Made by a program: the position numbers and the translations under genes
The notes under the pieces: generated by a model
Seen by the model: the letters and a program-made list of their open reading frames with translations, nothing else
Told to the model about the DNA's origin: nothing
The model's database searches: none
Part shown: one piece after another, positions 18,581 to 29,160 of the stretch
Layout: every line of letters begins with the position of its first letter
How positions within the stretch are numbered: position 1 is the stretch's first letter
Source of the DNA: Porphyromonas cangingivalis
GTDB taxonomy: Bacteria; Bacteroidota; Bacteroidia; Bacteroidales; Paludibacteraceae
NCBI GenBank assembly: GCA_945902955.1
Contig: CAMDNO010000023.1
Location: forward strand, 1 to 35,267
Direction: 5' to 3'
DNA length: 35,267 nucleotides

Positions 18581-18677
18581 AGCATTAACTATTTATCAGT
18601 TGTTTTATAGTGATTTGTAAATTGGAATAGATTTTGATGTAAAATTAAAGAAAAAATTCATTAATGTTGCCCGAATC

Positions 18678-19055
18678 ATGAAATCAAAAGTTATATTCTT
18701 ATTTTTAATATTAATCATTCAATCGGTTAGTGCTCAACTTTTTGTTTCAAAAGCAGTTAAGTTTGCAAGTAGAAATGATGCTTATCCTTACGGTGAGGCT
18801 GTTGAGTCAAATTTAGATGTTGAAATGGATTTTGAAAATCATAAATTAAAATTATCAAATATTCCTGATTATTGTTTCGAATTAAAAATGATAAGTGAAA
18901 CTCCCCGAAATAATGGAAAAGTAGTACGTTTAAGCTCAATTTGCCCACAACATAAGCGTTGTTTTATAATTGCTTATGTCGAAAATAACCACATTATGAA
19001 TTTAGAAATCAAATTCGTTACAACCTCATATATGTATTTTTTAGCTACCACCTAA
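18678..19055 (+). CDS. Small secreted protein of unknown function
   Basis: This is a 125-residue protein I do not recognise. The signal peptide is convincing: MKSKVIFLFLILIIQSVSAQ, cleavage after residue 19 or 20. The mature part of about 105 residues is acidic in its first half (NLDVEMDFENHKLKLSN) and contains three cysteines (in DYCFEL, SSICPQ and KRCFII), two of which could form a disulphide. The gene is AT-rich. It stands alone, preceded by a hairpin and followed by a strong terminator, which suggests a real single-gene unit. No clean -7 element was found; TAGATTTTG at 18629-18637 has one base too many. Confidence 0.65.
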   Translation: MKSKVIFLFLILIIQSVSAQLFVSKAVKFASRNDAYPYGEAVESNLDVEMDFENHKLKLSNIPDYCFELKMISETPRNNGKVVRLSSICPQHKRCFIIAYVENNHIMNLEIKFVTTSYMYFLATT

Positions 19056-19084: not shown

Positions 19085-19122
19085 ATGGACAATTTTCTTT
19101 AAAGAAAATTGTCCATTTTTTT
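19085..19122 (+). terminator. Terminator after the small secreted protein
   Basis: Two perfectly complementary 16-base arms, ATGGACAATTTTCTTT and its reverse complement, meet at 19100/19101, giving about 14 paired bases and a four-base loop in RNA. The run TTTTTTT begins at the end of the stem. It is a strong intrinsic terminator. Confidence 0.88.
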
Positions 19123-27068: not shown

Positions 27069-27334
27069 CTATTTCCAACTTATTTCTTAAAACAAAGAAA
27101 CAAACCTCCAAATTCACAAACTACTCATATCCAGTATTTTTGTGCAATATGAAAATATTTAAAACTTATTATTTATAACTTTTTACGGATTATTTGTTTT
27201 AAATAATCGCAAATTCTTTCTATTTCTAACAGTACAATTATTTATATATTATTTTACTTGCAATTTGTATTTTGACAAAAATATTTCAATAAAAAATATT
27301 ACGGAAAAATTTCTTTAATTAAAAATAAATGCAT

Positions 27335-27342
27335 TACTTTTG
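27335..27342 (+). promoter_or_regulatory. Promoter -7 element for the carboxyltransferase gene
   Basis: TACTTTTG fits TAnnTTTG, 51 bases before the ATG. The expected -33 position falls on the ATTTCTTTAATTAA half-site rather than on a TTG, as if the promoter needed or answered to a regulator. Confidence 0.5.
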
Positions 27343-27347
27343 CAGCG

Positions 27348-27371
27348 AATTAAAGAAATATTTCTTTAATT
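27348..27371. promoter_or_regulatory. 24-bp perfect palindrome, candidate operator
   Basis: AATTAAAGAAAT is followed directly by its reverse complement ATTTCTTTAATT. It begins five bases after the -7 element, so it covers the likely transcription start. A matching half, ATTTCTTTAATTAA, is at 27309-27322 over the -33 region. This arrangement is what a repressor or dual regulator site would look like; no regulator gene is adjacent. Confidence 0.7.
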
Positions 27372-27393
27372 AAACAATAAAATGTAGAAACAA

Positions 27394-29160
27394 ATGGAAG
27401 CTAAAAGAGAAATTAAATTCAGTCTTGTTTACAGAGACATGTGGCAAGCATCGGGCAAATACGTTCCCCGCAAAGATCAATTAGAAAAAATTGCACCCGT
27501 ATTGATTGAAATGGGTTGTTTCGCACGTATCGAAACAAATGGAGGCGCTTCGGAACAAGTCAATTTATTATTTGGCGAAAATCCGAATGATGCCGTACGC
27601 ACATTTACAAAGCCATTTAATGATGCTGGAATTCAGACACACATGCTCGACAGAGGATTGAATGGACTTCGAATGAATCCCGTTCCGGCTGATGTACGTG
27701 AGTTGATGTATAAAGTAAAAAAAGCACAGGGCGTTGATATTACACGCATTTTTTGTGGATTAAATGATGTTCGAAACATTATTCCAAGTATTCAATATGC
27801 AAAAGCTGCCGGAATGATTGCTCAAGCTACATTGTGTATCACATTTTCTGAAATTCATACTGCTGAGTATTATATAAATATGTCCGAAGAGTTAATTCAG
27901 GCAGGCGCCGACGAAATTTGTTTGAAAGATATGGCTGGAATTGGTCGCCCGGATATGTTGGGAAAAATTGTAAAAGCAATAAAAACTGAGCACCCAGAAA
28001 TTATCGTTCAATATCATGGACATTCGGGACCGGGCTTGTCGATGGCTTCGATGCTCGAAGTGGCCAAAGCAGGTGTCGACTATATAGATGTAGCAATGGA
28101 GCCGCTTTCGTGGGGAATGGTGCACCCTGATGTTATTTCCGTGCAAGCCATGCTCAAAGATGCTGGATTTATTGTACCCGAAATAAATATGAGTGCTTAT
28201 ATGGAAGCTCGCCGATTAACACAAAGCTTTATCGACGACTTCTTGGGATATTTTATGGACGATAGAAATAAATTAATGTCTTCACTTTTAGTAGGTTGTG
28301 GTTTGCCAGGTGGCATGATGGGCTCGTTGATGGCTGATTTGAAAGGTGTTCATTCTAATATTAATAGTTTTCTAAAAGAAAAAGGCAGAAAAGAATTATC
28401 TACCGACAACCTACTTGTAATGCTTTTCGACGAAGTGAAATATATATGGCCAAAACTTGGTTATCCACCATTGGTAACTCCTTTTAGCCAATATGTTAAA
28501 AATATAGCATTACTTAATGTCATGTTTTTAATAAAAGACCAAGCTCGCTGGACAATGATTGACAAAAACTCGTGGGATATGATTTTGGGTAAAGCAGGAA
28601 AGCTGCCCGGAAAACTTGATGACGAAATTATAGCATTAGCAAAAAAGAATAAATACGAATTTTACGAAGGTAATCCACAGGATAATTATCCAAACGAATT
28701 GGATAAATTTATAGCCGAAATGGAAGAAAAGGGTTGGAGTCGTGGCAAAGATGATGAAGAACTTTTTGAATTTGCGATGCACGAGAAACAATATCGCGAC
28801 TTTAAATCGGGCGAAGCTAAGAAGCGATTTGATGTAGAGTTGGAAGCAGCCATTAAAGAAAAATACACCAAACACAGTATTGAAATACCAAACATCAGAT
28901 TGCTTAAATACCCTAATGCTGAGCCAATTGTTGCACCATCAACAGGGCGTGTAATTTGGGAACTCGACTACAACGAAGGTTCGAAAGAACCCGTTTATGG
29001 AAAACTTTTTAGAGAATTAGATCCCGTTTGTACAATTCAAACGCGCTACGGTATTGAACAGATTGGTAGTTTCTGTACGGGTCGATTGGTTGGAATTGAA
29101 AAAAAACAGGGTGAAATTGTTCGTAAAGGTGAAATAATTGCATTTATAGAGCAAAAATAA
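27394..29160 (+). CDS. Oxaloacetate decarboxylase/pyruvate carboxylase-like carboxyltransferase with degenerate carrier domain
   Basis: The first 300 residues form an HMGL-like TIM barrel: R14-D15-M-W-Q18, the lysine stretch CLKDMAGI with K178, and the metal ligands H208-G-H210 (canonical HTHD). A conserved carboxyltransferase C-domain follows (PGGMMGSLMADL, YPPLVTPFSQYVKN, EGNPQDNYP). The last 75 residues look like a biotinyl/lipoyl carrier fold (APSTGRVIWEL, later FCTGRLVGIEKKQGEIVRKGE). However, where AMKM should be the sequence is T550-R-Y-G, so there is no lysine to biotinylate. Bacteroidetes have many such homologues of unclear reaction; oxaloacetate or a related keto acid is likely. 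There is no adjacent membrane decarboxylase subunit or biotin carboxylase. It probably acts with a separate carrier, or no longer as a biotin enzyme. Confidence 0.85.
   Translation: MEAKREIKFSLVYRDMWQASGKYVPRKDQLEKIAPVLIEMGCFARIETNGGASEQVNLLFGENPNDAVRTFTKPFNDAGIQTHMLDRGLNGLRMNPVPADVRELMYKVKKAQGVDITRIFCGLNDVRNIIPSIQYAKAAGMIAQATLCITFSEIHTAEYYINMSEELIQAGADEICLKDMAGIGRPDMLGKIVKAIKTEHPEIIVQYHGHSGPGLSMASMLEVAKAGVDYIDVAMEPLSWGMVHPDVISVQAMLKDAGFIVPEINMSAYMEARRLTQSFIDDFLGYFMDDRNKLMSSLLVGCGLPGGMMGSLMADLKGVHSNINSFLKEKGRKELSTDNLLVMLFDEVKYIWPKLGYPPLVTPFSQYVKNIALLNVMFLIKDQARWTMIDKNSWDMILGKAGKLPGKLDDEIIALAKKNKYEFYEGNPQDNYPNELDKFIAEMEEKGWSRGKDDEELFEFAMHEKQYRDFKSGEAKKRFDVELEAAIKEKYTKHSIEIPNIRLLKYPNAEPIVAPSTGRVIWELDYNEGSKEPVYGKLFRELDPVCTIQTRYGIEQIGSFCTGRLVGIEKKQGEIVRKGEIIAFIEQK

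Follow-up and report, generated by a model that had tools for sequence, protein, structure and literature searches.

Paired operators at a Bacteroidales carboxyltransferase gene are part of a conserved regulon of NADH-linked genes, whose most likely reader is a Rex clade with altered DNA-reading residues

The closest described systems are the regulons of Rex, a known NADH sensor. In its abstract, the main comparative paper on this regulator, by Ravcheev in 2012, reportedly does not mention Bacteroidetes. The canonical Rex operator is given as TTGTGAANNNNTTCACAA in three papers (PMC6391272, PMC2883068, PMC5317091). According to the T. maritima Rex-DNA structure report, Arg48 reads G5 (-7), Lys49 reads G7 and A8 (-5, -4), and Arg60 and Gly61 touch T4 and T3 (-8, -9) (PMC8836258). 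Among the matches listed from the open-access literature, no paper dealt with Rex in Bacteroidales or with the regulon described below (an earlier RegPrecise prediction is possible): PMC12596196, PMC10994844 and PMC12632263 do not name Rex as a regulator anywhere in their text, and the word appears just in a reference in PMC3878776 and just as an author's name in PMC12578642.

The window, that is, the whole stretch of 35,267 nucleotides that was analyzed, carries two operators at the promoter of a carboxyltransferase gene. We put at roughly 0.8 the probability that both belong to a global redox regulon whose regulator is most likely the organism's own single-copy Rex. The system shares with described Rex regulons a Rex family protein, palindromes near promoters with GAA at -5 to -3 from the dyad, and targets in NADH-linked fermentation, including malate dehydrogenase and hydrogenase. 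It differs from them in the outer arm of the operator (AATTAnn for TTGT), in the length of the site (24 bp versus 18), in three residues of the DNA-reading parts of the protein (Ala for Arg48, Thr for Arg60 and Arg for Gly61) and in its targets, which here form the succinate-propionate pathway. The features on which the argument draws are as follows.

27297-27320, unstranded: operator O1, TATTACGGAAAAATTTCTTTAATT, a full imperfect palindrome, one mismatch from the degenerate motif
27310-27313, plus strand: TTTC within O1, in place of the -33 TTTG, placed by its spacing to 27335
27335-27342, plus strand: putative -7 promoter element TACTTTTG, TAnnTTTG type
27348-27371, unstranded: operator O2, AATTAAAGAAATATTTCTTTAATT, an exact 24-bp palindrome over the likely transcription start
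27394-29160, plus strand: the presumed regulated gene, a 588-aa biotin-type carboxyltransferase (PycB/OadA/transcarboxylase-5S-like; Pfam PYC_OADA and HMGL-like)
18643-18666, unstranded: a weaker match to the motif, with 2 mismatches; an orphan ORF of 125 aa, unmatched in NCBIfam, begins 11 bp further on
G000:C28:31415-32089, minus strand, outside the window: Rex, single copy in the same genome, of a Bacteroidales clade with changed DNA-reading residues

O2 begins five bases 3' of TACTTTTG, an element of the consensus type TAnnTTTG for the -7 position, and is an exact palindrome at 27348-27371, as the original prediction had it. Its 24-mer has no further match in the window at up to 3 mismatches and had none in 100 shuffles. 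When the 427-bp intergenic stretch was simulated 20,000 times (Markov-1, same dinucleotide make-up), 26 runs produced a perfect palindrome of at least 24 bp, and simulated whole windows contained 0.017 such palindromes each (60 runs). The earlier proposal of a half-site upstream stood in part: the arm ATTTCTTTAATTAA does recur, at 27309-27322 and 27360-27373, 51 bp apart, but the upstream copy is the right arm of the full operator O1. The two operators are likewise 51 bp apart, close to five helical turns; it is this spacing that bears on the earlier idea that a bound regulator might bridge the promoter. The start of O1 precedes the TA of the -7 element by 38 bp, which puts it in the class of positions seen most often at mdh and at the promoters of other carboxyltransferase genes. 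The usual -33 element had been noted as missing, and indeed there is no TTTG at that place, only the TTTC of O1. The two sites flank the promoter as proposed, O1 lying on the -33 region and O2 on the likely start.

Both operators are kept in the nearest named relative, a Paludibacter MAG with 96% protein identity. At locus L039 O1 and O2 are kept, O2 as far from the -7 element as in the window, and the flanks have diverged; in another relative (L041, 85%) O2 lies at an unchanged distance from the -7 element, O1 has decayed and the flanks differ. Within 320 bp upstream of the gene, 29 of the 80 named relatives fetched have a site with at most 3 mismatches. Among those that have upstream DNA and share 79% protein identity or more, the site is found in 25/27 at up to 3 mismatches and in 27/27 at up to 5, the pattern that a functional palindrome was expected to give where gene and promoter persist. 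The remaining 53 relatives include four with a site at up to 3 mismatches, with L040 and a few others having little or no upstream DNA. Several species have two operators at the carboxyltransferase gene, spaced 51-64 or 23 bp. This conservation and the non-random spread of the site across genomes support the operator reading: the palindrome at 27348-27371 is real, conserved and far above chance, and is a predicted regulator-binding site.

The site also defines a regulon, as had been suggested. At up to 3 mismatches the 24-mer occurs in 35/35 same-genus genomes (177 matches versus 7 for the reversed control), and in the organism's own genome (assembly of 4.52 Mb, 87% complete) it gives 5 matches versus 0, which is not a random scatter. 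The shared degenerate motif, AATTAnnGAAAWWTTTCnnTAATT, gave 126 matches versus 26 control at 2 mismatches in nine genomes of the genus. In Paludibacter-like bacteria it precedes pckA, mdh, fumarase, frdC, mutA, epimerase/mmdA, CoA-transferase, PPi-phosphofructokinase, nqrA and hydrogenase genes. The anticipated link to genes of related metabolism was therefore found, for most genes of the succinate-propionate pathway; the proposed restriction to keto-acid metabolism was too narrow, with the regulon covering this pathway and NADH-linked enzymes.

The clearest case is G015, a single contig of 3,685,504 bases that is probably P. propionicigenes WB4, where all but one of 11 sites are followed by genes of the pathway or of NADH metabolism: succinate CoA-transferase, mdh, PPi-phosphofructokinase, carboxyltransferase, fumarase, methylmalonyl-CoA epimerase with mmdA, a probable NDH-2, mutA, pckA and frdC. 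These names come from NCBIfam, with fumarase and mmdA under the cut-offs and NDH-2 without a fitting model. Names resting on weaker matches or on the N-terminus read by eye are those of fumarase, mmdA, NDH-2, the NuoE/F-like subunits and the window carboxyltransferase (best NCBIfam model PycB, 245.6 bits, under the cut-off of 402); those of gap, GTP-PEPCK and orthologues in other genomes were unscanned and have the same basis. In other species the targets also include nqrA, hydrogenase subunits of NuoE/F-like type and a monomeric [FeFe] hydrogenase. The organism's own genome has 10 sites at up to 2 mismatches to the degenerate motif, seven of them before the carboxyltransferase (two), mdh, CoA-transferase, fumarase, pckA and frdC; the other three lie in a HisB-antiporter gap, 473 bp from NDH-2, and before the orphan at 18678, the last of which may be a chance match. 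At 3 mismatches there are 32 matches versus 9 control, so the additional ones are mixed with chance. Ten Rex-bearing genomes of more distant relatives, outside the genus-like set, have 25 of 27 sites before core genes, and in one of the ten, Bacteroides luti, all three precede frdC, mdh and pckA.

The targets point to a role in NADH balance, and NADH is what Rex is known to sense; mdh, frdC, nqrA, the hydrogenases and related genes are of the kinds that balance NADH/NAD+. The organism's own Rex matches NCBIfam NF003994 with 296.5 bits (cut-off 130) and eight PDB Rex sequences with E values of 1e-31 to 1e-22. In alignment with these, Arg48 is replaced by Ala54, Lys49 is retained as Lys55, Arg60 is replaced by Thr66 and Gly61 by Arg67; the four PDB alignments listed have Arg at the Arg48 position. 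Among 46 Rex proteins (those readable by a simple pattern among 58 loci, with some genomes counted twice), 38 have AKD with a [KR]TR[VI] wing and 8 have R[KR]D. Across 137 target-linked sites, position -7 is A in 66%, C in 16%, G in 15% and T in 4%. G(-5), A(-4) and A(-3) are kept, at positions fixed by the motif selection; because this selection left just -7 and -6 free, no other position is without bias. Loss of Arg48 would thus go with loss of G(-7), and the retained Lys with the retained G(-5)A(-4), a match that we count in favor of Rex.

The shared motif lacks TTGT and so does not match the canonical TTGTGAANNNNTTCACAA. A search for the latter (2 mismatches) in 30 genomes gave 1141 matches versus 902 control, higher in 24/30, and 45 versus 50 in the organism's own genome; this modest excess counts against the present reading but is much below that of the new motif, and the canonical pattern was set aside as the real signal. 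Somewhat better than even, in our estimate, are the chances of a fuller account, in which this Rex clade lost the guanine-reading Arg and rebuilt its wing as its operator went from TTGT to AATTAnn, so that NADH would directly control almost all of the succinate-propionate fermentation together with NADH dehydrogenases and hydrogenases, possibly with position-dependent action, that is, a block over the promoter and perhaps activation from upstream places stepped by 12 bp.

The distribution of the protein argues for Rex as well. This clade of Rex is present in 33/35 same-genus genomes; the two genomes in which it was not found, 87% and 82% complete, nevertheless carry 8 and 3 sites. Co-occurrence with sites was compared for two regulators, this Rex clade and a CRP-type protein, in 50 genomes from among the 80 named ones that have the carboxyltransferase, with net sites meaning at least one match above control. 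Net sites were found in 23/23 genomes with this Rex versus 6/27 without (Fisher 5e-9), and in 16/16 versus 6/27 after seven genus-like genomes had been removed; in total, genomes with this Rex had 93 matches versus 3 control, and those without it 15 versus 7. Order-wide, in 294 Bacteroidales genomes (own genome excluded, this-clade Rex called at 200 bits or more), the 52 with this Rex had 223 matches versus 75 control and the 242 others 835 versus 733 (Mann-Whitney 3.5e-9). A site with at most 2 mismatches stands upstream of mdh in 7/10 Rex-bearing versus 0/8 Rex-less genomes (Fisher 0.004). In two of the eight, the closest match differs at 5 positions and may be a relic. Five genomes with another, Arg-keeping Rex (VRKDL) had no sites. 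In Rex-less genomes, none of eight inspected sites (L230-L237) precedes a core gene; one adjoins pepD, which is a neighbor of CoA-transferase in G015.

These comparisons have a limit that leaves room for a different transcription factor, one that went unnoticed and disappeared from the lineages that lost Rex, as the protein that binds the motif: the Rex-site co-occurrence follows lineages, so the genomes are not independent, and co-occurrence cannot separate genes that were lost together. Several counts weigh against Rex, and two of them, the site-rich genomes without this Rex and the rarity of a site before rex, also favor such a factor. At least 4 matches above control were found, by counts alone, in 26/242 genomes without this Rex, for example in G090 (20 versus 3), G274 (9 versus 1), and G254 and G205 (6 versus 0 each), and 4/52 Rex-bearing genomes have fewer matches than control. 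Three Rex-bearing genomes have no mdh site, two of them also no CRP-type protein. A site (at most 3 mismatches) precedes rex itself in just 2/23 clade members and in 0/21 of a second set, and autoregulation of rex was dropped as a proof of Rex for this reason. With such a factor, however, both the residue-to-base match of Rex and the NADH-centered target list would be coincidences, and we consider it unlikely.

Site geometry bears on a different proposal, that a CRP/FNR-type activator rather than Rex binds the operator and switches on the propionate pathway. A TAnnTTTG element was found near 103 of the 137 sites, and the distances from site start to TA cluster at discrete values, 35-38 (n=34), 47-52 (n=37) and 60-61 (n=10), with the rest at 19 (n=5), at -22 to -12 (n=11) and elsewhere (n=6); these counts are not independent because orthologues share ancestry. 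Many sites lie 5' of the -33 element, at 37, 49 and 61, and such activator-like distances, together with GA at -5/-4, recall CRP/FNR operators, the motifs of that family being palindromes with GA at those positions. The upstream sites at 49 and 61 could mean activation, with the 12-bp steps having no explanation. The -33 place is covered by sites at 37 and the start by those at -12 to -22, with sites at 19 falling between the two boxes, and such positions suit a repressor; sites between -33 and -7 (fumarase, PPi-phosphofructokinase) or 3' of -7 (window gene, epimerase) are unfit for an activator. The CRP-type protein is present in 31/50 genomes and its association with net sites (26/31 with versus 3/19 without, Fisher 3e-6) is weaker than that of Rex. 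It persists where the mdh site is gone, with 0/8 mdh sites at up to 2 mismatches in the eight genomes that have it and lack this Rex, its reading helix looks alike in genomes with and without sites, and the outer arm of the operator differs from that of CRP/FNR sites. A CRP/FNR gene does adjoin one site in G001 (L161), but close relatives of its product (63-79% identity) occur in just 3/50 genomes, and it was set aside as the regulator. On balance, a CRP/FNR-type activator appears quite improbable.

The reading of the palindrome as a product of chance or of DNA or RNA structure, with no regulator involved (short palindromes are common in intergenic DNA that is 80% AT, and an RNA hairpin might look similar) is refuted by the simulations, the excess in the genus, the recurrence before the same genes across species and the conservation of the palindrome amid diverged flanks, and a hairpin is at odds with most sites being upstream of their promoter and hence untranscribed from it.

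If Rex is the regulator, its action can be pictured by analogy with known Rex proteins. Rex with NAD+ would sit on the operators and keep the promoters low; a rise in NADH would make it leave, turning on target genes that would spend NADH through the formation of malate, fumarate, succinate and propionate, quinone reduction and hydrogen evolution. At the window gene, Rex would sit both on the -33 region, at O1, and on the start site, at O2. In sediments, digesters and guts, anaerobic Bacteroidales make propionate and succinate as main products, and flux through the pathway would then be set by one NADH sensor. Targets in species not yet cultured could be predicted from the operator, and the clade would show in nature, residue by residue, how a regulator changes along with its DNA code.

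Some further observations concern neighboring genes and proteins. A second kind of Rex-like protein (VRRD) occurs in other Bacteroidales families (L192-L197), adjoining a ribF-like gene, named by eye, in at least three of these loci. In G001 a TetR gene stands beside a hydrogenase site (L154); this was seen once, and TetR was set aside as a regulator. The antiporter next to HisB in the organism's own genome (L264, G000:C109, site 1812-1835) is of the AspT/YidE type, a family that includes succinate exporters. Besides O2, the window has one perfect palindrome of at least 20 bp, at 19085-19116; it is 32 bp long, lies directly past the ORF at 18678-19055, is followed by a T run, and looks like an intrinsic terminator.
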